Shown in pieces: positions 1 through 15,141 of a stretch of 15,141 nt of DNA. Source of the stretch: a bacterium (GTDB taxonomy: Bacteria; UBA9089; CG2-30-40-21; SBAY01). The notes beneath the pieces are model-generated. The model saw only the letters and a program-made list of their open reading frames with translations, did not search any database and had not been told where the DNA came from. The translations under genes and the position numbers were made by a program. Every line of letters begins with the position of its first letter. The stretch's first letter is position 1. Where the stretch lies: assembly GCA_040757115.1 (NCBI GenBank), contig JBFLYA010000087.1:1-15141 (forward strand), given 5' to 3'.

Positions 1-1512
1 TCCCAAAGTCGATACAGATTAACTCACTTGCCGCAAATCCATCACCTCTAACGGTTACTGCTGTTCCAATAGTGCCTTGCTGTGGACTGACAGCGGTTAT
101 CCTGCCAAGCATCCTGAACCAGCTGTATGCCGCACAGTCTTTGCCTTTAGCACTGACGGTTATTGTGCCACCTCCTGGCTGGGTATCTGCGGTAAATACA
201 GCAGTGAACCGACCCAGTCCATCACTTAAGGTTACCGCTATCGTCGGGTTAGTCCCAAAGTCGATACAGATTAACTCACTTGCCGCAAAACCATCACCTC
301 TAACGGTTACTGCTGTTCCAATAGTGCCTTGCTGTGGACTGACAGCGGTTATCCTGCCAAGCATCCTGAACCAGCTGTAGGCAACACAATCTCTCCCTTT
401 CGCACTGACGGTTATTGTGCCACATCCTGGCTGGGTATCTGCGGTAAATACAGCAGTGAACCGACCCAGTCCATCACTTAAGATTACCGCTATCGTCGGG
501 TTAGTCCCAAAGTCGATACAGATTAACTCACTTGCGGCAAATCCATCACCTCTAACGGTTACTGCTGTTCCAATAGTGCCTTGCTGTGGACTGACAGCGG
601 TTATCCTGCCCAGCATCCTGAACCAGCTGTAGGCAACGCAATCCTTTCCTTTCGCACTCACGGTTATTGTCCCGCATCCTGGCTGTGTATCTGCGGTAAA
701 TACGGCGATGAATCTGCCAAGATAATCACTTATGGTCGTTGTTATTGTTGGATTGGTCCCAAAGTCGATACAGATTAACTCACTTGCCGCAAATCCATCT
801 CCTCTAACGGTTACTGCTGTTCCAATAGTGCCTTGCTGTGGACTGACAGCGGTTATCCTGCCCAGCATCCTGAACCAGCTGTAGGCCACACAATCTTTTC
901 CTTTCGCACTCACGGTTATTGTCCCGCATCCTGGCTGTGTATCTGCAGTAAATACGGCGATGAATCTGCCAAGATAATCACTTATGGTCGTTGTTATTGT
1001 TGGATTGGTCCCAAAGTCGATACAGATTAACTCACTTGCCGCAAATCCATCACCTCTAACGGTTACTGCTGTTCCAATAGTGCCTTGCTGTGGACTGACA
1101 GTGGTTATCCTGCCCAGCATCCTGAACCAGCTGTATGCAACGCAATCCTTCCCTTTCGCACTCACGGTTATTGTCCCGCATCCTGGCTGTGTATCTGCGG
1201 TAAATACGGTGATGAATCTGCCAAGATAATCACTTATGGTCGTTGTTATTGTTGGATTGGTCCCAAAGTCGATACAGATTAACTCACTTGCCGCAAATCC
1301 ATCACCTCTAACGGTTACTGCTGTTCCAATAGTGCCTTGCTGTGGACTGACAGCGGTTATCCTGCCCAGCATCCTGAACCAGCTGTAGGCAACACAATCT
1401 CTCCCTTTCGCACTCACGGTTATTGTGCCACAACCTGGCTGGGTATCGGCAGTAAAGGTTGTGGTAAATGTACCTTGAGCTGTAGATAATACCGTGGCAA
1501 TTGTTGGATTCA
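1..1512 (-). repeat. Near-identical 252-bp tandem repeats encoding 84-residue IPT/TIG-like domains
   Basis: The landmark TCCCAAAGTCGATACAG recurs at nt 1, 253, 505, 757, 1009 and 1261, exactly 252 bp apart, and the array continues off the left edge. Each unit encodes 84 residues with landmarks GTIGTAVTVRGDGFAASEL, CIDFGTNPTI, DTQPGCGTITVSAKGKDC and YSWFRMLGRITAVS. The GTxGTxVTVxGxGF pattern and immunoglobulin-like strands fit the IPT/TIG family. Two sub-types differ in the middle: LSDGLGRFTAVF in the two leftmost units and ISDYLGRFIAVF in the next three. Most units carry three cysteines (ICIDFG, PGCGT, KDC), unusual for this fold; the leftmost complete unit has Gly in place of the PGCGT cysteine. 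Unit identity implies recent duplication or gene conversion, and copy number may vary or be mis-assembled. Confidence 0.92.
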
Positions 1513-4500
1513 TCCCAAAACCTATGGTTACTTTTTCTGATGCCGCAAAACCATTGCCTACCACCGTAACCTTAGTTCCAATTAGACCACTTACAGGAGT
1601 AACTAAGACAATATTCCCGCGAATAATGAAGGTATCAAGAGCATTTTGACCAGAGGTTAATCCTCTTGTAACTATTGTAGTTGTCCCATAGCCTTGTGTA
1701 TCAACCTTAAAGCTGGAGCTAAATGCACCTGAATTATCGGCTGTCGTTGTAGCAATAGTCAAACTCTTACCAAAATCTATCCCAATTCCTTCATTCAAGT
1801 CAAACCCTGCACCTGCTATTTTAACAATACTGCCTACCGTCCCCATTGCAGGTGAGACTAAGGTTATTCCTGGCTTGAGTGTAATCACAAAGTAAGAATA
1901 ACATACCTCATTACTGTCTATCCCTCTAACTAAAATAGTAGTCGTCCCTGCTGATTGTACATCAACAGTAAATATAGTAGAAAAACTGCCCACACCACTT
2001 GAAACACAGTCAGCAATAGTCTTCGTCGTACCAAAATCTACTACTATATCTTCTATTGCTGAATAACCATTGCCTGAAATTGTAACATTAGTCCCCCTTA
2101 GACCACTGGTAGGTGAAACCAAAACAATATTCCCTCGAATGAAGAAGGAAGCACAAGCACTAAAAACAGACCCTGTAGCACTAATGGTATAAATACCAAA
2201 AGGCTGGGTCTGGACTGTAAAATTACACCCAAAGCTTCCAAAGGCATCAGTAGTAGCCATAGCAATACTCATAATTGTGCCAAAATCGATACGGATTAAT
2301 TCTGTCTGAAGATACCCTTCACCTTTTATTGTAACTTTAGTTCCAACAGTACCAGAGTGAGGTGAAACTAAAGTTATATTAGCAGTCACTGCTACTTGTT
2401 CAGCAGACCACTGACTTGCAGCAAGCCCGGTATCAATTGCCTGTACAGCCCAGTAATAAGTCCCGGGTGGCAGATTTAAAGTAAGTGACTTTTGTTTGAG
2501 CAAATAATTACCAAACAGTGGTGAACCATATTTACCTGCGACTACATCTTCTTTACCAGGTGCAGTGCCTACTCGAATATTATAATACAACCCTTTTTCA
2601 GTAGTCTCTTTATCACTACCTGCATTCCAACTGAATGTAAGCTTGCCATTTGAATAACTTGAACTGAATTGAGTAGGTGGAGACGGTAAATTATTAGATT
2701 TAACTCCATAGTTTTTATATAGATTAGAAACTGCATAAAGACCTGTTGACAAAGTAATATCTTTATTACCTTCTGTACGCAATAAATCCAATAAATCCAT
2801 TATTTCTTTAGGAGAAATGATAAGTCCTGTTAATACAAGGTCAAGATTTCCATCACAATCTATATCTCCCCAGGCAATAGAACTTGTCATTACCCCTATT
2901 AAATTTTGAAAGGTATCCTCTATTAACTTCCCAGATGCATTCTTGTAGATTTTTGAAATATGTTCCTTTGACTGAGTAAGTCCTGTTACTGCCAAATCTA
3001 AATCACCATCATTATCGTAATCACCCCAGGCAATGGAACTTGCACCTACACCTGGTAATTTTTGGTTTATATCTTCTATTAATTTTCCAGATTCATTTTT
3101 ATAGATTTTAGAAATATGTTCTGTCAAGATAGTTCTTCCTGTCAATACTAAGTCTAAATCACCATCATTATCATAATCACCCCAGGCAATAAAACTACCT
3201 TGTACTCCTATTAAATCTTGAGAGGTATCCTCTATTAACTTCCCTGATTCATTCTTATATATTTTAGAAATATTGTTAAACCAGTTGTACCCAGTTAAAG
3301 CCAAATCTAAATCACCATCATTATCATAATCACCCCAGGCAATAGAACTGTTTATTACCTCTATTAAATGTTGAGAGGTATCCTCTATTAACCTCCCAGA
3401 TTCATTCTTATATATTTTAGAAATAATCCCATTTGAATAATTCCATCCTGTTAATGCCAGATCCAGGTCACCATCATTATCATAGTCTCCCCACGCAATA
3501 GAACTGTTTGTTACCCCTATTAAATGTTGAGAGGTATCCTCTATTAACCTCCCAGATTCATTCTTATATATTTTAGAAATAATCCCATTTGAATAATTCC
3601 ATCCTGTTAATGCCAGATCCAGGTCACCATCATTATCATAGTCTCCCCACGCAATAGAACTATCTTCTACTCCTATTAAATCTTGAGAAGGATCTTCTAT
3701 TAACTTCCCAGATTCATTCTTATAGATTTTTGAAATACCTTCTCCTGATTCAAGACATCCTGTTAAAGCTAAATCTAAATCGCCATCATTATCATAATCT
3801 CCCCAAGCAACAGAACCAACATAGACATCTACTAAGTCCATTTTAGCATCAATCAGAAGATTCTCAACTATATGTATCTTAAAATTCTTTATTTCCTCTG
3901 CATTACCTGCATTATCCACTGCTTGATAGTAAATTGTATGTTCACCCGGCCTCAGACTAAAAGGCTCAATATAGATAATATCAGGTTCTGGGTTATCTAT
4001 CCCATATTTTATCTTCGCTACTCCTGAAATTACCTCACCAGTTGTCCCCATCGGGTCTATAGCAGTCAAGGAAAAGGTAGAACTGGATAATGTATATGAA
4101 CCATTATATACTATTCCATTTAGTTCAATGGTTGTTACAGGTGGAGTAGTATCTTTTTTCACTAAGGCGGCATAATCTGAGGTATGCTCTATTTTTGCCT
4201 CAATAGTCTTATTTTGCCTATCCACTATCCCACCAATATATTCTGGTACCCCATGGTCGCTGAGATAGAATATCCCTAATTGCTCAACCTTAATATTCTG
4301 CTCTTCATTTACTCCATAATTTTGACTAACAATCTCGCCTGTCTCTATCTTTACTCCTTCTATTTCTGGGTCAGCATCCATTTGAACGCCGATTATGCCA
4401 TCATAAGTCTGGTCGGTCTCGATGAGTTCATTATTATTAAAATCCAGATAAGATAATCTAAGTGTTGCCGCAGGTGAAAATTTCAGGCCTTTTGGTGCAA

Positions 4501-7500
4501 CATTATAGATTTTATCTAAATAATCAAAGAATGGTTCTAATTCTGGTGTTGAGGTAGCGGGTGTAATCTGGATTGTCGAAGTAGCCCAGTTAATCTCCTG
4601 TAAAATCTGTGGCGGAATGACTAATTCGATTGACTTGATGGATGTATCTGAACCAATATCCCCAATTACTGTGCCGCCTATTTCTGCCAAAATAGGCCGT
4701 TGATAGCTAACCTCTTTTACTGATTTTGTGGCATTGCCAGCAATGTCTAAAGAAGTCAATTCGACTATGTATTTACCCGCATTTAGATTAAGTGGTGATT
4801 GGTAGGTAATTTTATCAACCATTTTCGTCCAATTACGCTTTTCTATATCTGCCGACCCATCTCCCCATGTCCCAAACTCTTGTTGAGGTGGTAATGGATT
4901 TAATCCAGCAGTCCCTATCAAATTCTCCTGGCTATCATAGACACAGAGTAAATAGCCTTTAATATATCCATCTAATGTCATATCAAGGTCAAAGATGGGG
5001 TTATCCGGTGGGGTGTCTATTTCACAAACCCCCTTTATCTTTACAGGTAGAGTATCAGTAGCTAATGTTACCTGGCTATGGGTGGCATATTCTAATTTAT
5101 TATTGTAATTAACATAATCGTAATCTCCGGTTGGAAACAAGCCGGCACTGGCAATAGATGCCTCCCGCCTACCCGAGCCATCTCCTTTGCCTGGCGGTAT
5201 ATCCCTGCCATCCCAGATATAAGCATTGGAATTACAGGTATTCGTCGCCATCTCTATAAATTCCATACATTTTATTGGAAATACCCAGGCGAAGCGTGTA
5301 AGATTACCACTGACTATATCCTGACTCCCATAGATAGGAACCGTAGGAAAGATAACCTTCTTCTCTATTTGAATAATGGGGTTTGAGTTAGTTACCGGAA
5401 TTGGTGGTGTGCTCCGATATGTTGGAGAACCATAATCTATTATCGGTGGGAGTGGAGGTGTAGTAATCTGGATAAATCTATTCTCTTTTATCCCATCCCA
5501 GAAGACTACATTACCATCAACATCCTTTAGTTTAATCTTTAAGGTATATCTGCCGGATAACACCATAAACCCATAAATATTCCTTCCATCCCAGCCATAT
5601 TGATAGGTAATTTCATGGTTATTACCCGAAGTAGTTGGTGACCCTAATATTTGTGTCAACTTCCCCTCATCATTAACTACTATTGCCTCAAGCTCTGTGG
5701 CTACCTCCGAGAGAAAGGAAAAATTAAGCATTGGGTTAGTCTGAAAATCAAATTCTAAAGGAAGGGTTAAGGAATCTATCTTTGGTAGCCCTTTCTTAAG
5801 TATCTGGCTATAGGCAAGTTTTGATTCTTTACTTGCCTCATCTACCCCTTTTAGACTAAGGTAGTAGGCAGTATAAGTCCCTGAGTCTGGCAACTCAATA
5901 TTATCCTTATCTTTGCCAGACCAGATAACCTCATTTTCACCTAAATGGACCTCCTCTGTCCAATCCCATACAGGACCGTAGGGTGGGGTATCTTGAAAGA
6001 AACTCTCGATATCAGGATACTCAAGAGGATTCACCTGGTATATATTTATCGTCACCATCCCTGCCTCTGAAATATTGTAGCCAATGACATTAGTCTTGAT
6101 ATTTTCTGCAAGAGTAATCTCAGGTCCTGTTGTATCCACACGCACTGCCCTGATTTGTCTATTCTGATGCTCTAATTTATCGGTGACGGTTAATTCTAAG
6201 GTATAGATACCGCCATCGACTAAATTTGAGGTATTCCAGTTGGTCAAAGTGCCATTTATGACTGAAGTATCTTTTGTAATAATCTCATACCAGGTAGGGT
6301 TAGGATTATGTTCATTCAGTATCCCCTGGCAATATTTGAGTTTAAACTCCTTAAAATTCTTATCCCAGGCAGTGCCGCAGATATCCACTTCCGGTAGGGC
6401 TATGGCTTGTGAGAAACCTGGCTGGGTAATTATGGCGGTCGGATTGGTATTGTCTATCTCGATTATCTTAGTCATCACTGAGCTATGATTAACCAGGTCA
6501 GTGGCAGTCAATCTTAAGGTATATGTGCCATCGGGTAGTGGTAAGGTATTCCAGGTAGCTAAAGTGCCCATATCTTTTTGCGCCAGGGTAGAACTGACAA
6601 TCAGCTTCCAATCTAACGCCGGATTTATCCCTTGAGCATATTCGAGGGTATAAGTACCAAAATGCTTATCCCATGTTCTACCAGAAATAGTGATAGTGCC
6701 TGTAAGGAGTTGGTAGCCGGCATCATTATAGACAGTCCCGGCAAAGATATCACTCGTTAGCGAACCTATCTCGACTACTGGTGGTTCTGTATCTATCTCT
6801 ACATTAACATTGACCGGTTTTGGTTCTGAAATATTACCATAACTATCATCTATCTTTAGCTCCACAATCTTATACTCCCCATCTTTTAGACCTGGTAGAA
6901 TAAGGTAATTAAACCGATATGTTTCAAAGTTACCTACATCGGCTCTTTTAGTTCCTTGGCCAATATAGATAGGCAGGATTGTTTGAGCTGGAGTGTTGAG
7001 ATTAGAAGTCCCGGTTAATTTATTACTGCCATCAAGCAAATCCACATCAAAATAGATATAATCCCCATCCCCTAAAATAGGATTTGGGGTAGAAGAAGAT
7101 ATTCCTATCTTATTCACCAACGGGGCTAAGGTATCCTTACCCATAACCTTAATCTTTAATACTCCAGTTTCAGTCCATGTCCCAAAGTCATAAGGTGTCC
7201 CATTTACATCTGTAACCCTATCTGTAATGGCAATATTAAATGGAATTTCAGTATTAGGTGGGCAATCAGATGAAATTAAGGTAAGGGCATCCTTCTTAGA
7301 ATATCCCTGTTTATAAATACCCGTTAAATCTGTAAAATCAGTCGCTGTATCATCTATTATTCTCTTCACATAAAAGCTATCACTACTCAATTTTCCCTTA
7401 AGCTTATGCGAATAATTTGGACAATCCTCATAAATCTGCCTGATATTGGTATAGCCAATCTGAAGTAAATATACCTCAGTAGAAACAAGTTCACCTGCAT

Positions 7501-9763
7501 CTACATTACCATTATTATTTTTATAGAAATCATCTTCTGTTGTAACACCTTTATCAAATTTAAGTCTTAAATCCATACCTACCTTATCAACTATAAGTGA
7601 ATCTTCATAATTTATACCATACTCATCGATAATATCTAATTTAAAATTTAATATTTGATTAAAAGGGCAATCTTCATCTACTTTAATTATATATCCTGGA
7701 CTATTTTCTCCTTCACCACCGTATGGCTCCATCTTTGAGAATGAAGTTTGATTATTTACAATTCCAGTATATTTTTCTGTCATAGCATCTTTAGTAGTAA
7801 TAGTTGCTATTGTTTCCCCGAGGTGTAATAACATACTACCGTAATTCTTGAGGATAGTTTGTAGTACTGGTGTTTCACCTGCATCTACATCTCCATCTCC
7901 ATTACCCCAAAATTCCCAGCTTCTTAATGATTGTGGTGCTTTATCAGGTAACTCTTTAACTTTAAACTCGATAGATTTATCTGGAATGGGGTCTTGGGGA
8001 TAATGACTTTTATAGCGTACCTTAGCCGTATGAACATATAAATTGAATCTATATGAGGTATCAACAGAAGGATTGGTAATAATCACTACCATCCTCCCAT
8101 AGTCAATTCCTAATCCTTTTATAATTATCTCTCCTTTTTCCTTTGCCTCATTTTTAAATAAAATTTGACTCTCAATGAATTCATATATCGTTCGTTTTAT
8201 AACACTTCCCTTTATATTTAATCCTTCCAGTTTAATTTTAATCATCTGAGCATAGTTATCTGAAACAGGGATTTTTGGGTCTATCAAGAACTCATAATAT
8301 ACCTCAGTACTTGTACCCAGAGTGATATTATTTAAGTTAAAAGGGTATAAGTCCGTACTATAGGCAATGTTAAATTTATAATCTGTATTTTTACCTGGTT
8401 CATAATTACTCCAGGAGCCACTATCAGTGCGAGTCCCCATAGGAAGTGTTGTATCTAATCTATTTTCTGCTAAATCTTTGGCATCAATACTCAAAGTATA
8501 TTCACCAATAGTCATTTCTTTAGGTATCTGGCAGATACCTACCCAGGTATCATTTAAAAAATCACTTTTTGACCAGGGTGTATCAATTGGTGTTACCGAA
8601 TATTGAGCATAAGGTGAGGTAAGACCGAAGGTAACAGTTGGAGTAATACATGTCTTCATACTTTCTGAAAATTGGATAACAAATTTAGTCGCACCTGACC
8701 CTACAGGATAGCGGTAATTAGAATCATTTGAATCATACAATAACTGCATCCCTTGAAGTATCTTTACTCGCTTAACCATCGGGGCAAAGTTATCTAAAAT
8801 AACATCCCTGGTCTGATTAGCAGAATTCGATCGAATATCCTCAGCTATTACCTTTATCGTATAGCTACCATCCGGATACATTGCCTCATAATTCGTTTGG
8901 GCATCATTATAGGTAGCCGGGTCATTATCTATATCTCCATTCTTATCCCATTTAGTATTCCAATACTTATTTGCCGTAGGAGTCCCTGCGGCAAATGGGT
9001 CATTGGTAACCCAGTAATAGAAGCCAGTAGAGCTTTGCCCATCGTAGATAAGCTCAAAATTATCGTTATCAGGTTTAGAATCAAATTTAATATATTCTAT
9101 CTTATTGCCAATGGTACTTCCATCCTGTAAGAACTCAGCATAGATTTTATAAACAGAGCATCTATGTCCTGCACTATTACCATTTGAATCAGTCCGAGGG
9201 TCAAAAGCATCTGCCTTTATATCTATCCGATTCCAGAGGATATTGCCAGTAATTTGAGTATTAGTTCTATCTCGGTATAAAGTAAAACTGGTCACCGTAG
9301 GATTGGCATTGTCAGTAAATGGACTTAACCCATTACTCCTTAATGGATTATAGTCACCATCATCTTCTTCAAAGTGTAAGTGAGGATGGACTAAAACATT
9401 GCCAATAACGCCCAAAAGAGTCTGACCTGCAATTACCGGATCGTTTACATGGAGATTATTCTCAGGATCCATATGGCGATATGTATATGCTCTACCATCA
9501 TCCCCATTAACCACAACTCGTCCATTTCCACCTTCTACAATCTCTCCGATTATTCCACTTACAGCAGGATATACATTAGTCCCTGCACCTTCTCCTATAT
9601 CTACACCAGCGTGGAAATGAAGTGGATCGGTTCTATACTCTCCAAGTGTACCTGTAATAGGATGTTGAGTAGTAGTTCCTGGTACTGGCCAGATATAACC
9701 CAATACTATATGAGGAGTAAGAATAAATAGGCTACTTAAAAGAAAAAAGGTCTTTTTTATCAT
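1..9763 (-). CDS. Giant secreted multidomain protein: M23 peptidase, Ig-like, VCBS propeller, Fn3 and IPT repeats (3'-partial)
   Basis: The reading frame starts at ATG 9763 and runs off the left edge: 3254 codons with no stop found in the frame when translated through. Residues 1-22 form a Sec-type signal peptide (MIKK, hydrophobic core, cleavage probably after VLG). Domain order: M23/LytM peptidase (about 25-150); mixed Ig-like, OmpL47-like and FlgD-Ig-like segments (about 150-1960); seven FG-GAP/VCBS blades (about 1970-2350); Fn3 domain (about 2360-2455, with PPGTYYWAVQAID); then IPT/TIG-like repeats from about 2459 to the edge. The start lies 2 bases after the stop of the upstream gene and its Shine-Dalgarno lies inside that gene's last codons, so translation is probably coupled. 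Architecture suggests a cell-surface adhesin or matrix protein with a peptidoglycan-directed head; the ligand is unknown. The C-terminus, and any sorting or anchoring signal, is outside the window. Confidence 0.93.
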   Translation of the reverse strand, partial: MIKKTFFLLSSLFILTPHIVLGYIWPVPGTTTQHPITGTLGEYRTDPLHFHAGVDIGEGAGTNVYPAVSGIIGEIVEGGNGRVVVNGDDGRAYTYRHMDPENNLHVNDPVIAGQTLLGVIGNVLVHPHLHFEEDDGDYNPLRSNGLSPFTDNANPTVTSFTLYRDRTNTQITGNILWNRIDIKADAFDPRTDSNGNSAGHRCSVYKIYAEFLQDGSTIGNKIEYIKFDSKPDNDNFELIYDGQSSTGFYYWVTNDPFAAGTPTANKYWNTKWDKNGDIDNDPATYNDAQTNYEAMYPDGSYTIKVIAEDIRSNSANQTRDVILDNFAPMVKRVKILQGMQLLYDSNDSNYRYPVGSGATKFVIQFSESMKTCITPTVTFGLTSPYAQYSVTPIDTPWSKSDFLNDTWVGICQIPKEMTIGEYTLSIDAKDLAENRLDTTLPMGTRTDSGSWSNYEPGKNTDYKFNIAYSTDLYPFNLNNITLGTSTEVYYEFLIDPKIPVSDNYAQMIKIKLEGLNIKGSVIKRTIYEFIESQILFKNEAKEKGEIIIKGLGIDYGRMVVIITNPSVDTSYRFNLYVHTAKVRYKSHYPQDPIPDKSIEFKVKELPDKAPQSLRSWEFWGNGDGDVDAGETPVLQTILKNYGSMLLHLGETIATITTKDAMTEKYTGIVNNQTSFSKMEPYGGEGENSPGYIIKVDEDCPFNQILNFKLDIIDEYGINYEDSLIVDKVGMDLRLKFDKGVTTEDDFYKNNNGNVDAGELVSTEVYLLQIGYTNIRQIYEDCPNYSHKLKGKLSSDSFYVKRIIDDTATDFTDLTGIYKQGYSKKDALTLISSDCPPNTEIPFNIAITDRVTDVNGTPYDFGTWTETGVLKIKVMGKDTLAPLVNKIGISSSTPNPILGDGDYIYFDVDLLDGSNKLTGTSNLNTPAQTILPIYIGQGTKRADVGNFETYRFNYLILPGLKDGEYKIVELKIDDSYGNISEPKPVNVNVEIDTEPPVVEIGSLTSDIFAGTVYNDAGYQLLTGTITISGRTWDKHFGTYTLEYAQGINPALDWKLIVSSTLAQKDMGTLATWNTLPLPDGTYTLRLTATDLVNHSSVMTKIIEIDNTNPTAIITQPGFSQAIALPEVDICGTAWDKNFKEFKLKYCQGILNEHNPNPTWYEIITKDTSVINGTLTNWNTSNLVDGGIYTLELTVTDKLEHQNRQIRAVRVDTTGPEITLAENIKTNVIGYNISEAGMVTINIYQVNPLEYPDIESFFQDTPPYGPVWDWTEEVHLGENEVIWSGKDKDNIELPDSGTYTAYYLSLKGVDEASKESKLAYSQILKKGLPKIDSLTLPLEFDFQTNPMLNFSFLSEVATELEAIVVNDEGKLTQILGSPTTSGNNHEITYQYGWDGRNIYGFMVLSGRYTLKIKLKDVDGNVVFWDGIKENRFIQITTPPLPPIIDYGSPTYRSTPPIPVTNSNPIIQIEKKVIFPTVPIYGSQDIVSGNLTRFAWVFPIKCMEFIEMATNTCNSNAYIWDGRDIPPGKGDGSGRREASIASAGLFPTGDYDYVNYNNKLEYATHSQVTLATDTLPVKIKGVCEIDTPPDNPIFDLDMTLDGYIKGYLLCVYDSQENLIGTAGLNPLPPQQEFGTWGDGSADIEKRNWTKMVDKITYQSPLNLNAGKYIVELTSLDIAGNATKSVKEVSYQRPILAEIGGTVIGDIGSDTSIKSIELVIPPQILQEINWATSTIQITPATSTPELEPFFDYLDKIYNVAPKGLKFSPAATLRLSYLDFNNNELIETDQTYDGIIGVQMDADPEIEGVKIETGEIVSQNYGVNEEQNIKVEQLGIFYLSDHGVPEYIGGIVDRQNKTIEAKIEHTSDYAALVKKDTTPPVTTIELNGIVYNGSYTLSSSTFSLTAIDPMGTTGEVISGVAKIKYGIDNPEPDIIYIEPFSLRPGEHTIYYQAVDNAGNAEEIKNFKIHIVENLLIDAKMDLVDVYVGSVAWGDYDNDGDLDLALTGCLESGEGISKIYKNESGKLIEDPSQDLIGVEDSSIAWGDYDNDGDLDLALTGWNYSNGIISKIYKNESGRLIEDTSQHLIGVTNSSIAWGDYDNDGDLDLALTGWNYSNGIISKIYKNESGRLIEDTSQHLIEVINSSIAWGDYDNDGDLDLALTGYNWFNNISKIYKNESGKLIEDTSQDLIGVQGSFIAWGDYDNDGDLDLVLTGRTILTEHISKIYKNESGKLIEDINQKLPGVGASSIAWGDYDNDGDLDLAVTGLTQSKEHISKIYKNASGKLIEDTFQNLIGVMTSSIAWGDIDCDGNLDLVLTGLIISPKEIMDLLDLLRTEGNKDITLSTGLYAVSNLYKNYGVKSNNLPSPPTQFSSSYSNGKLTFSWNAGSDKETTEKGLYYNIRVGTAPGKEDVVAGKYGSPLFGNYLLKQKSLTLNLPPGTYYWAVQAIDTGLAASQWSAEQVAVTANITLVSPHSGTVGTKVTIKGEGYLQTELIRIDFGTIMSIAMATTDAFGSFGCNFTVQTQPFGIYTISATGSVFSACASFFIRGNIVLVSPTSGLRGTNVTISGNGYSAIEDIVVDFGTTKTIADCVSSGVGSFSTIFTVDVQSAGTTTILVRGIDSNEVCYSYFVITLKPGITLVSPAMGTVGSIVKIAGAGFDLNEGIGIDFGKSLTIATTTADNSGAFSSSFKVDTQGYGTTTIVTRGLTSGQNALDTFIIRGNIVLVTPVSGLIGTKVTVVGNGFAASEKVTIGFGMNPTIATVLSTAQGTFTTTFTADTQPGCGTITVSAKGRDCVAYSWFRMLGRITAVSPQQGTIGTAVTVRGDGFAASELICIDFGTNPTITTTISDYLGRFITVFTADTQPGCGTITVSAKGKDCVAYSWFRMLGRITTVSPQQGTIGTAVTVRGDGFAASELICIDFGTNPTITTTISDYLGRFIAVFTADTQPGCGTITVSAKGKDCVAYSWFRMLGRITAVSPQQGTIGTAVTVRGDGFAASELICIDFGTNPTITTTISDYLGRFIAVFTADTQPGCGTITVSAKGKDCVAYSWFRMLGRITAVSPQQGTIGTAVTVRGDGFAASELICIDFGTNPTIAVILSDGLGRFTAVFTADTQPGCGTITVSAKGRDCVAYSWFRMLGRITAVSPQQGTIGTAVTVRGDGFAASELICIDFGTNPTIAVTLSDGLGRFTAVFTADTQPGGGTITVSAKGKDCAAYSWFRMLGRITAVSPQQGTIGTAVTVRGDGFAASELICIDFG
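1513..2392 (-). repeat. Divergent IPT/TIG-like repeats preceding the homogeneous array
   Basis: Four older copies of the same domain precede the near-identical array in the protein. They are marked by the FGxxxTI-type strand near nt 1513, 1768, 2029 and 2278, at spacings of 255, 261 and 249 bp. Each has the entry strand pattern VSPxSGxxGTxVTIxGxGY/F, for example LVSPHSGTVGTKVTIKGEGY in the first. These have drifted strongly at both DNA and protein level, in contrast with the downstream copies, so expansion occurred at the C-terminal side of the domain. Confidence 0.85.
2395..2690 (-). other. Fibronectin type III domain of the giant protein
   Basis: Residues about 2359-2455 start at LPSPPTQF and continue with KLTFSWNAGSD, YYNIRVGTAPG, LPPGTYYWAVQAID and SQWSAEQVAV. 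This is the usual Fn3 order: Pro-rich entry, central Trp, then the YYWAVQAID strand. It sits between the propeller and the IPT repeats and probably serves as a rigid spacer or carbohydrate/protein contact module. Confidence 0.8.
2830..3850 (-). repeat. Seven FG-GAP/VCBS repeats (about 52 aa, 156 bp) forming a probable seven-bladed propeller
   Basis: Seven tandem units carry the core WGDYDNDGDLDLALTG or a close variant, followed by SKIYKNESGKLIED. The DxDxDG loop is the Ca-binding loop of integrin-alpha-type FG-GAP/VCBS repeats. Seven units make one complete beta-propeller. Six keep the DYDNDGDLD loop; the last in protein order (near nt 2855) reads DIDCDGNLD and is followed by a divergent closing segment. 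Units near nt 3361-3516 and 3517-3672 are almost identical at a spacing of exactly 156 bp, which indicates a recent blade duplication. Such propellers usually bind ligands or partner proteins. Confidence 0.9.
3860..9305 (-). other. Ig-like, FlgD-Ig-like and Ca-binding linker region of the giant protein
   Basis: Residues about 150-1965 are a chain of beta-sandwich segments. Visible landmarks: two Ca-binding-type loops of the form NGDGDVDAGE (about 618) and NNGNVDAGE (about 748), as often seen before CARDB-like domains; a pair of related modules with WDKHFGTYTLEYAQG (about 1035) and WDKNFKEFKLKYCQG (about 1132), each followed by a DGxYTLxLTxTD strand; FlgD-Ig-like WxG turns at WSGKD (about 1280), YGWDGRN (about 1382) and YIWDGRD (about 1515); and an OmpL47-like stretch with TTPPVTTIELNG (about 1868) and GEHTIYYQAVDNAGN (about 1940). 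These are structural spacers or binding modules in large secreted proteins. Boundaries are approximate and made by eye; several stretches between landmarks (for example about 320-600) match no family I can name. Confidence 0.7.
9310..9691 (-). other. M23 (LytM/lysostaphin-type) metallopeptidase domain at the N-terminus of the giant protein
   Basis: Residues about 25-150 of the giant protein match the M23 fold. The first zinc motif is HxxxD (H51 and D55, in HAGVDIG). A middle histidine follows (H97, in YTYRHMD), and the HxH motif is HLHFE (H128 and H130). The glycine-rich GQTLLGVIG strand before HLHFE also fits the family. M23 enzymes cleave peptide cross-links in peptidoglycan. All expected ligands are present, so the domain looks catalytically competent rather than a degenerate LytM regulator. 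It begins directly after the signal peptide, with no coiled coil or LysM before it, and would act outside the inner membrane. Confidence 0.9.
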
Positions 9764-9765
9764 TT

Positions 9766-10806
9766 TTATTCCTCTCTTGATATAGATTTTATCAGAGTAC
9801 CATTTTTATCAAACCAGTACTCTTTAACTATCTTAATTCGTGCATTTGTTTCCTTAATATATGAATTTGCTAATTTACCTATGTAAAATATAATAAAATT
9901 ATCCTCTGTAATACATTTAAGTCTACACATATAGGCATTTTTTCCTTCAACAATATTCTCTTTTCTCCATAGTTCATTTCCCTTATCATCCATTACAATC
10001 AAATGCTTTTTCTCTCTCTCCCGGAATTTTTTAGCTTCCACTTTCCTGTCAATGGTTGAAACAACTATGGCACAGAAACTCCCATCCTTGGAAAACGTTA
10101 TATCCGCCCCTCCACCGTCAATCCTTATCCCTCCAACCCGTTCTATCCTTTTACTCACCCCATTATCAAAAAATATGTCTAGCGGCGCTTCTCCCCACTC
10201 AGAATCAGAACAAAAAACATATTTGCCATTAGATGAAACCTTAACATAGGGAGGATATGAAAAAAGACCAACTTTGGGTTTCCACAATACATCCCCTTCT
10301 GTATTTATTACTATGCAGTCTGTAGATATTCCATAGGGTGGTTTATCAGACGGTTTTGCCGATATTCTAGTAGTAGTTACAACAATATACTTTCTGTTTT
10401 CAGAAATTTTTACCTCTGCCGCACTTTGCTTTCCAAGAATCCATCTTTGGACAGGTATTTCCTTCTTTAACCTTCCTTTTTCATCCAAAAATTTAATTGA
10501 TTTTGCTCTCCCTTGAGCATTTTCATCTTCTACAAATATCACCTTTGGATACTGCACCTTCACTGTCTCTGTTACCTTCTTCTTCTCCAACCCCTTCATC
10601 CCCAAAGCCCTTGCCTCTTCTACAGTCATCTCTGTTTCACCAAAGATAACATCAGCAATAGGTTCATCAGATTTGTATTCAAGGACCAATGCTGGTTCTA
10701 TAGTCTCTGTGCCGACGACTGTTTCTGTTCCCTGGGTTTGGGCAAATCCCTTGCTTGCCAACAATCCCAAAACCACCCCTAAGATTAGTGCCTTTTTAAT
10801 AGACAT
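9766..10806 (-). CDS. Secreted beta-propeller-like protein of unknown function (346 aa)
   Basis: The start at 10806 is supported by AAGGAGG nine bases upstream. Residues 1-22 are a clear signal peptide (MSIKKALILG... ASKGFA|Q). After a low-complexity Thr/Glu stretch, residues about 128-345 show repeated WD40/PQQ-like blade strands: AEVKISENRKYIVVTT (about 130), IVINTEGDVLWKP (about 165), YVKVSSNGKYVFCSDS (about 187), ADITFSKDGSFCAIVVS (about 234), LIVMDDKGNELWRKE (about 269) and EYWFDKNGTLIKS (about 329). The alternation of an outer strand and a DxxGxxLW strand is typical of exported propellers that bind partners rather than catalyse. It sits 28 bp after the secretin and 2 bp before the giant gene, so it probably works with one or both. 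No enzyme motif is visible. No family name can be assigned with confidence. Confidence 0.85.
   Translation of the reverse strand: MSIKKALILGVVLGLLASKGFAQTQGTETVVGTETIEPALVLEYKSDEPIADVIFGETEMTVEEARALGMKGLEKKKVTETVKVQYPKVIFVEDENAQGRAKSIKFLDEKGRLKKEIPVQRWILGKQSAAEVKISENRKYIVVTTTRISAKPSDKPPYGISTDCIVINTEGDVLWKPKVGLFSYPPYVKVSSNGKYVFCSDSEWGEAPLDIFFDNGVSKRIERVGGIRIDGGGADITFSKDGSFCAIVVSTIDRKVEAKKFREREKKHLIVMDDKGNELWRKENIVEGKNAYMCRLKCITEDNFIIFYIGKLANSYIKETNARIKIVKEYWFDKNGTLIKSISREE
9771..9777 (-). promoter_or_regulatory. Shine-Dalgarno of the giant gene embedded in the end of the upstream gene
   Basis: On the minus strand AGAGAGG lies inside the final Arg-Glu-Glu codons of the upstream gene. It is followed by that gene's TAA and then ATG 9763. 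Ribosomes finishing the upstream gene would be positioned to start the giant gene, so the two are probably translationally coupled. Confidence 0.75.
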
Positions 10807-10834
10807 TTCACATTACCTCCTTTGAGTTTTATTT

Positions 10835-12229
10835 TTATATTTTAATAATTTTTGGTGTTAAAGTAATAACTATTTCTCTTGTTGTATCTTGTGATATTTT
10901 TCGTTTAAAAAAATAACCTATTATGGGAATACTACCTATTATTGGTACTTTCTTTTCTGTGAATACCTTATCTTCTTTCATAAGTCCGCTTATAAAGAAC
11001 GGTTGACCATCTTTAAGTATTACAGTCGTATTGGTTTTCCGAGAAGTGATGATAGGTTGATTTTGATTTGTAAAACCATTTAAGGTATTATAATCAGTAT
11101 TAATGGTTAATTTAATAAGGCCAGTTGTAGTTATTTGTGGAGTTATTTGAAGGGTTAATCCAACATCTTTTGATGTCTCTATCTTTTCATAAGTAGATTG
11201 TGGAATATAATATATCTTATCAGTAAAGTCCAACTCTCCTGTTTGGTTGTTTAAGATTGAGATTCTTGGGGTAGCCTTGATTTTGGCAGAACCTTTACTA
11301 ACTAATAGATTAATAAAATCAGATAAAGATAATGGAACAGAAATATTTCTAATATTTATATCAAAATTTTTTCTCAATGTATCCTCCCACCTTTCATAAA
11401 TATTATTATATTCCTTACGTTTTGAATATTCATTCCATGACTCCTGATAATACCTTCCACTTGTATTAAAACTTAAGAATTCAAAGATATGGTTCCAATC
11501 TATTCCTACTTTCTTGCCTTTAGCATATATAACTTCCATGACTGTAACTCCAATTTCCACTTGCTCAGATAGAATATCAACATTTTTAATAATCTCTTTA
11601 ATCTCAATAATTTTACTTGGTATATCAGAAATCATAATCGTATTTAATGTATTGTCACAGATTACCTTACCTTTACTTGATAATCGTTGATTGATAAATG
11701 GTATTACTGAAGTTACAGAGATATTTTGAAATCTATAAAAGTAATTCTCAATACCATCATTCCCTGAAGTTCTTTGTTTATCGAGTTGCTTTAAAGCCTC
11801 AATTATCGAATTTACTTTTGATGGGAGATCAGTAATCAGGACAGCCCGCTGGTCCTTTAAAACTGCAAAAGAACCATCATCGCTTAATGAGGATGAGATA
11901 AAATCTACCAATTCCTCAGCAGAAATATTTTGGAATTTATAAATATTTGAAATAGTTAAATCATCCTGGTCATTGATAATGCGAAGGTTTATATCATCTT
12001 TTGAATTTTTTATCTCTAATTGAATAGGAATCTCTTCTGAATAAACCATAGTAGCCCATAATGTATCAGCAAGCACTCCTATTGCCAGCAAGCAAACCAA
12101 TCCTAAACTCATCTTACACCTAACCATAATTTTATCCTGGCAATCTGTGGCAATCTGCGTCCTATTATTTTTAACCATAATTCTACCACCTACTAAAGAT
12201 TTTTTAAACGATTGTTTTAGGTTAAACAT
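10835..12229 (-). CDS. Short secretin (GspD/PilQ-type outer-membrane pore), 464 aa
   Basis: Secretins form multimeric gated channels in the outer membrane for type II secretion, type IV pili and related systems. Two N1-type (Secretin_N/NolW-like) domains are visible: residues about 96-150 (YKFQNISAEELVDFI ... LITDLPSKVNSIIEALKQLD) and about 164-218 (YRFQNISVTSVIPFI ... MISDIPSKIIEIKEIIKNVD). The secretin core spans about 222-462, with VEIGVTVMEV, ATPRISILNNQ, a late VILKDGQPFFISGL and the signature VPIIGSIPIIGYFF, ending in TREIVITLTPKI. It is shorter than typical GspD and lacks a recognisable N0 domain and C-terminal S-domain. The start at 12229 has AAGGAGG ten bases upstream; the real signal peptide appears to be the hydrophobic stretch at about 40-60 after an odd leader. 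An alternative start is Met35 (nt 12127), because the leader contains a repeat insertion. No ATPase or pseudopilin genes lie in the window. Confidence 0.92.
   Translation of the reverse strand: MFNLKQSFKKSLVGGRIMVKNNRTQIATDCQDKIMVRCKMSLGLVCLLAIGVLADTLWATMVYSEEIPIQLEIKNSKDDINLRIINDQDDLTISNIYKFQNISAEELVDFISSSLSDDGSFAVLKDQRAVLITDLPSKVNSIIEALKQLDKQRTSGNDGIENYFYRFQNISVTSVIPFINQRLSSKGKVICDNTLNTIMISDIPSKIIEIKEIIKNVDILSEQVEIGVTVMEVIYAKGKKVGIDWNHIFEFLSFNTSGRYYQESWNEYSKRKEYNNIYERWEDTLRKNFDINIRNISVPLSLSDFINLLVSKGSAKIKATPRISILNNQTGELDFTDKIYYIPQSTYEKIETSKDVGLTLQITPQITTTGLIKLTINTDYNTLNGFTNQNQPIITSRKTNTTVILKDGQPFFISGLMKEDKVFTEKKVPIIGSIPIIGYFFKRKISQDTTREIVITLTPKIIKI
12121..12182 (-). repeat. Repeat-derived 51-bp in-frame insertion in the secretin leader, flanked by 11-bp direct repeats
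   Basis: AATTATGGTTA (minus strand) occurs twice, at 12172-12182 and 12121-12131, exactly 51 bp apart. Between them lies GGACGCAGATTGCCACAGATT, read as Arg-Thr-Gln-Ile-Ala-Thr-Asp, which resembles the intergenic palindromic repeat at 13446-13510 (GGACGCAGATTTTCACAGAT). The 11-bp direct repeat looks like a target-site duplication and includes an ATG, so the insertion duplicated a possible start codon. 51 bp is 17 codons, so the frame is kept. Confidence 0.7.
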
Positions 12230-12254: not shown

Positions 12255-12341
12255 GGTAATTGGTTAAATGGTAACTGGTTAAATAATTACCAGTTACCAA
12301 TTACCAATTACCAGTTGCCAGTTACCAATTACCAGTTGCCA
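12255..12341. repeat. GGTAATTGG/CCAATTACC repeat with a strong hairpin upstream of the secretin RBS
   Basis: Stretches of the words TTACCAATTACCAG and CCAGTTGCC are repeated here. GGTAATTGGT (12255-12264) pairs perfectly with ACCAATTACC (12303-12312), and GGTAACTGGT (12270-12279) pairs perfectly with ACCAGTTACC (12289-12298), giving two stacked 10-bp stems with small internal loops. On the transcript this sits in the leader about ten bases before the AAGGAGG of the secretin gene. There is no U-tract, so it is not a standard terminator; an effect on leader folding is possible but unproven. Confidence 0.75.
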
Positions 12342-12346
12342 CTCAC

Positions 12347-13195: not shown

Positions 13196-13432
13196 GTAAG
13201 CGTTCAGGTGGTGTAACAAAAGGAGATGTGGAGATTAAGGAGATAGGGAGATATTATTAAAAAAATTGAAATTAGTAGAAACTAATAGAAATTTATGGGA
13301 ATTTGTTGTTTCCCACAATCAATTTCTACCTATTTCTATAAATTTCAATCTATTTCTATTATCTTATCTCCATATCGCCCTTATCTCCTTATCCCCTTTC
13401 TTACACTTTTGAGATATAGCCTGAACGGTTAC
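13196..13432. repeat. MITE-like nested palindrome (237 bp), copy 1
   Basis: The terminal inverted repeats are GTAAGCGTTCAGG (13196-13208) and CCTGAACGGTTAC (13420-13432), with one mismatch. Inside are concentric inverted layers: AGGAGAT-rich words against ATCTCCTTATC, then GAAATTxxTAGAAA against AATTTCTACC. The central hairpin TGGGAA (13296-13301) pairs with TTCCCA (13311-13316). No coding capacity. At least 126 bases match copy 2 at 15016-15141 with three differences. Confidence 0.85.
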
Positions 13433-13445
13433 CATTTTTTTAATG

Positions 13446-13510
13446 GGACGCAGATTTTCACAGATGGAGACAGATGAATTATTTCCTCAAATCTGCGTCC
13501 ATCTGTGTCT
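13446..13510. repeat. Palindromic repeat of the GGACGCAGAT/ATCTGCGTCC family
   Basis: GGACGCAGATT is answered by AATCTGCGTCC, a perfect 11-bp inverted repeat. Around it are degenerate words CACAGATGGAGACAGAT and ATCTGTGTCTCC. Related words occur inside the secretin gene at 12132-12171. Confidence 0.75.
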
Positions 13511-15010: not shown

Positions 15011-15141
15011 GTAGGCGTTCAGGTGGTGTAACAAAAGGAGATGTGGAGATTAAGGAGATAGGGAGATATTATTAAAAAAATTGAAATTAATAGAAACTAA
15101 TAGAAATTTATGGAAATTTGTTGTTTTCCACAATCAATTTC
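15011..15141. repeat. MITE-like nested palindrome, copy 2 (cut by window edge)
   Basis: It begins with GTAGGCGTTCAGG (15011-15023) and aligns without gaps to copy 1 at an offset of 1815 bases as far as the window edge. Differences from copy 1 over 15016-15141 are at 15090, 15114 and 15127. It ends immediately upstream of the AAGGAGG of the DUF4398 gene, so any promoter for that gene lies within or beyond the element. Confidence 0.85.

Follow-up and report, generated by a model that had tools for sequence, protein, structure and literature searches.

The secretin gene in the window analyzed here (the whole stretch of 15,141 nucleotides, from a 4.3-Mb source genome, G000) carries in its leader a short word that is intergenic elsewhere, which raises the question of how such a repeat became part of a protein. 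The gene is a 464-amino-acid ORF at positions 10835-12229 of the minus strand, with Secretin_N and Secretin domains (Pfam matches PF00263, E=6e-37, and PF03958, E=2e-17), and the word lies within its leader. Immediately upstream of the secretin start, positions 12260-12345 hold an array of short words (AATTGGTAACTGGTAATTACC...) that is ca. 35 bp shorter in a second genome of the same genus (G001); parts of this region match many places elsewhere in the G000 genome.

The first-pass annotation had described a 51-bp in-frame insertion with a direct repeat at its ends, and re-reading of the sequence yielded the same coordinates. Two copies of AATTATGGTTA, located at 12182-12172 (with Met18, 12178) and 12131-12121 (with Met35, 12127) of the minus strand, are spaced 51 bp apart and are in frame, and the ORF from 12229 to 10835 is continuous and stop-free through the whole segment. 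The 40 bp separating the copies (12171-12132) consist of AAAAT followed by AATAGGACGCAGATTGCCACAGATTGCCAGGATAA (12132-12166, minus strand); thus, 35 of the 40 bp are one copy of a repeat word, which is translated within NNRTQIATDCQDK. No other 11-bp direct repeat with its copies at most 80 bp apart occurs in the ORF. Since at least one such repeat was also present in 40 of 500 dinucleotide shuffles, the repeat by itself is unremarkable in an AT-rich ORF and is weak evidence alone. The same shuffle frequency (8%) speaks for a view in which the segment is ordinary leader sequence that matches the repeat by accident.

A comparison with the rest of the genome decided this point. We drafted a 35-bp search pattern, AATAGGACGCAGATTnnCnCAGATTnnCAGGATnA, mainly from copies outside the leader, and searched G000 allowing up to three mismatches, with the reversed pattern as a control. 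The search retrieved 49 matches versus none for the control. The leader copy matched with zero mismatches, a "perfect" match that is slightly circular because the n positions of the pattern were chosen with this copy in view, which leaves the control unaffected. The shorter word GGACGCAGATT occurred 59 times, compared to two occurrences for its reversed control, and the leader segment was 85% identical to several intergenic copies over 46 bp (E=5e-7). Since the reversed controls gave 0 against 49 and 2 against 59, the link of the leader segment to the repeat family is not due to chance, and accidental resemblance, whose probability we put close to nil, was ruled out by these controls together with the similarity to intergenic copies.

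A related pattern was present in 12 of the 61 genomes searched, all from one phylum, with the control giving 0 in every genome. Counts were highest in G000 (71), G001 (29) and G013 (27); G003, which belongs to another genus of the same family as G000, had one. When 30 distinct G000 copies were sampled and examined locus by locus, half were accompanied, within 160 bp, by a second arm in inverted orientation. In the window, intergenic inverted copies of the same family lie at 13446-13500, with GGACGCAGATT at 13446-13456 on the plus strand and 13490-13500 on the minus strand. The leader copy has no such second arm and corresponds to one arm of the family palindrome. The earlier description of a palindromic repeat turned into protein is therefore right as to the resemblance to the non-coding repeat at 13446 and wrong as to the palindrome, the leader copy being a single, non-palindromic arm. 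Of the 30 sampled copies, the leader copy alone is read in frame as part of a long and credible gene. At locus L139 the word also overlaps a long ORF (522 amino acids, codon 18); this case was set aside, since the start of that ORF is probably over-extended. A match of NRTQIATDCQD in genome G018, to a protein that we take to be siroheme-synthase-like, was weak (E=0.135) and was regarded as chance; a short match in G003 (contig C107, E=0.75) was unsubstantiated. In the literature, none of the matches listed for GGACGCAGATT dealt, as far as title or abstract indicates, with such repeats. Separately from the word, an intergenic block (TTCAGGTGGTGTAACAAAAGGAGATGTGGAGATTAAGGAGATAGGGAGATATTATTAAAAAAATTGAAATTA...) is present in the window in two near-identical copies, at 13205-13345 and 15017-15141.

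The annotation had further proposed that the word transposed recently into the leader, duplicating its target, and had called for an orthologue with a single repeat copy. Such an orthologue exists. The G001 secretin, 94% identical to that of G000 at the amino-acid level, has a leader (...TTTAGGAGGGGGGAAGATTATGGTCAGGAATAAGATGAG...) with one ATTATGGT and without the word, as an empty site would have. The abundance of the word in G000 and its rarity in G003 are also what recent insertion in G000 would lead one to expect. However, the G003 leader, MFNLKESLKTLGGGKIMVRSNRTQDLTAGCQDRIMIRNKIGLGLICLLAIGVFA, has the word as well, joined at the same positions and with the same duplicated residues (IMVR...IMIR), has diverged from the G000 leader to an ordinary degree, and has a period of 54 rather than 51 bp; its flanking repeat extends imperfectly to ca. 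17 bp. If the G000 insertion were recent, the G003 copy would have to be an independent insertion into the same site, a base-exact coincidence. Since the G003 word shares its junctions and shows ordinary divergence, the segment appears to predate the two genera, double capture at one base being an unlikely alternative. When contigs were scanned with the leader alignment, the sole matches were the G003 contig and a short leader of canonical form in G011.

If the segment is that old, the G001 leader takes on a different meaning. Replication slippage can precisely delete one direct repeat together with the spacer, and this would yield the G001 sequence. Given that G000 and G003 both carry the word and G001 lacks it, the most economical step is a deletion between the direct repeats in the G001 lineage, and we consider later loss the simplest explanation of the apparent empty site. 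A single-copy leader without the word thus does exist as predicted, but it is more simply a later loss than the state before insertion. This history was read from only three genomes (G000, G001 and G003), with the polarity assigned by parsimony.

Recent transposition also predicts direct repeats around other copies of the word. Among the 30 distinct G000 copies, flanking direct repeats longer than 8 bp were found at the leader copy only (11 bp), the others having 3-8 bp. The mean length of flank repeats was 5.3 bp (half) and 4.9 bp (full), compared to 4.7 and 4.8 bp, respectively, for mispaired flanks. Orthologous sites in G001 were located with a concatenated flank query. Three word copies (L012, L021 and L037) were common to both genomes at high identity. 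At six other loci (L013, L027, L028, L030, L032 and L040) the intergenic content differed, unrelated sequence occupying the site and several other repeat words being involved, and by this comparison intergenic content turns over quickly between G000 and G001. None of the G000/G001 orthologous sites compared formed a clean filled/empty pair with target duplication. Since flanks resemble the mispaired controls and no clean pair was seen, the data give no support for the word as an element that transposes with target-site duplication; judged from these 30 copies and G000/G001 sites, the family does not habitually duplicate its target. The proposal of recent transposition thus finds no support in the boundaries in G003 or in the flanks of the other copies, the latter being an outcome that the annotation itself had named as refuting it, and we consider it improbable. 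The duplication in the leader may instead stem from repair or recombination.

The context of the leader in G003 bears on the latter possibility. There, the word-bearing leader fronts a BamB-like protein (weak PQQ_2 match), followed by a 3101-amino-acid homologue of a giant ORF that also closes the operon in the G000 window, so that leader and operon position are common to both; the secretin is absent or was lost at this G003 locus. Unequal crossover could have joined two paralogous leaders, one of them with the word just upstream of its ATG, into a tandem start region that encloses the word, in which case no insertion into coding sequence took place. Similar leaders (MFKxKxxKGLxCLxAIG) are indeed common to several genes in these operons, the leader is attached to different bodies in G003 and G000, and the ca. 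17-bp imperfect repeat in G003 is longer than the usual target duplication. On the other side, among extant leaders, none was found in which the word immediately precedes the start, and we judge such a crossover rather unlikely.

Several further differences were noted around the operon. The BamB-like gene (9766-10806 in G000; L083:9417-10874) begins with a different signal leader in each genome (MSIKKALILGV... in G000, MFKEKLSKGIACL... in G001 and another in G003), which suggests that neighbouring genes have exchanged leaders. The spacer that separates the secretin gene from the BamB-like gene is 28 bp in G000; G001 has an extra ca. 1 kb there (L082, contig C60, ca. 9830-10960), in which lie copies of the word and one further gene (MFKEGLKKQLGWLIVFL...). 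The giant ORF of the window (2-9763; 3254 amino acids) has near-identical tandem units of ca. 252 bp at its C-terminal end, and G000/G001 alignments of this ORF slip by 252-bp steps.

Whether the word is translated depends on the start codon. The first candidate, M1 (12229-12227), is preceded by a Shine-Dalgarno sequence AGGAGG (12245-12240), which, like the first residues MFNLK, is conserved in the three-genome alignment. A manual count on the codon alignment gave differences in leader length of 51, 9, 12 and 3 bases; all four are multiples of three, for which the chance would be ca. 1 in 80 if they were independent. Both observations speak for M1 as the start of translation. Relatives that are shorter, such as MFKDKLRKGLICLLAIG, fit Met35 in length, yet their MF start resembles M1, so both remain candidate ancestral starts. 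An ancestral Shine-Dalgarno sequence for Met35 had been suggested in the annotation, and in G001 AGGAGG does precede the Met35 equivalent, 10 bases upstream. Just upstream of the second ATG, the end of the word itself reads CAGGATAA in G000 and CAGGATAGG in G003, and internal initiation there is possible. One could go further and regard these ends as a ribosome-binding site brought by the word, from which would follow two secretin forms, one of them 34 residues longer at its N-terminus, and a role of the word as a selected, portable start-site cassette; we find this very doubtful.

The history that we consider probable, with real room for doubt, is an old in-frame capture of one word arm in the leader, accompanied by a flanking duplication and followed by loss in G001. 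In the common ancestor of the two genera, one arm of the intergenic 35-bp word would have joined the leader of the operon's first gene, with ca. 11-17 bp of the leader around an ATG duplicated on either side of it; repair or template switching, instead of transposition, could have brought it in. Since the arm is open in the required frame (its consensus reads NRTQIFADYQDN) and is of a length that preserves this frame, the residues that it added ahead of the hydrophobic signal segment would have been tolerated without serving a function. In G000 and G003 the captured word would since have drifted as part of the coding sequence, and in G001 it would have been lost through a deletion between the direct repeats. 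Two observations count against old capture. The G003 leader stands on a different, BamB-like protein, and leader exchange could have carried the word into G000. Moreover, among the copies tested, such flanking repeats are found only at the G000 leader and its G003 counterpart.

If read in this way, the locus offers a modest and checkable example of an intergenic repeat turned into protein outside Rickettsia and Wolbachia, with word-bearing and word-free states both in close relatives and with genomes of the phylum rich in such words. The G001 leader would then illustrate that a site which looks empty may have arisen by loss. Replication slippage between direct repeats accounts for that loss but not for the capture. 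Rickettsia palindromic elements (RPE) and their Wolbachia equivalents are dispersed non-autonomous repeats that occur both between genes and in frame within genes, where the added peptide is apparently tolerated (PMC2229807, PMC10969869). The leader word is likewise intergenic elsewhere and in frame in a protein gene. RPE, however, are ca. 100-150 bp long, and the whole palindrome encodes a conserved peptide in many genes, compared to a 35-bp arm at one locus of 30 sampled here. Correia/NEMIS and ERIC repeats are short, mainly intergenic and at times fused in frame to genes (PMC2229807), and the leader word is similar in each of these respects; it differs from such MITE-like repeats in that target-site duplication was not found around the other copies tested. 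On this comparison, the leader word is best called a minor new instance of the already known in-frame capture of repeats, as in RPE.
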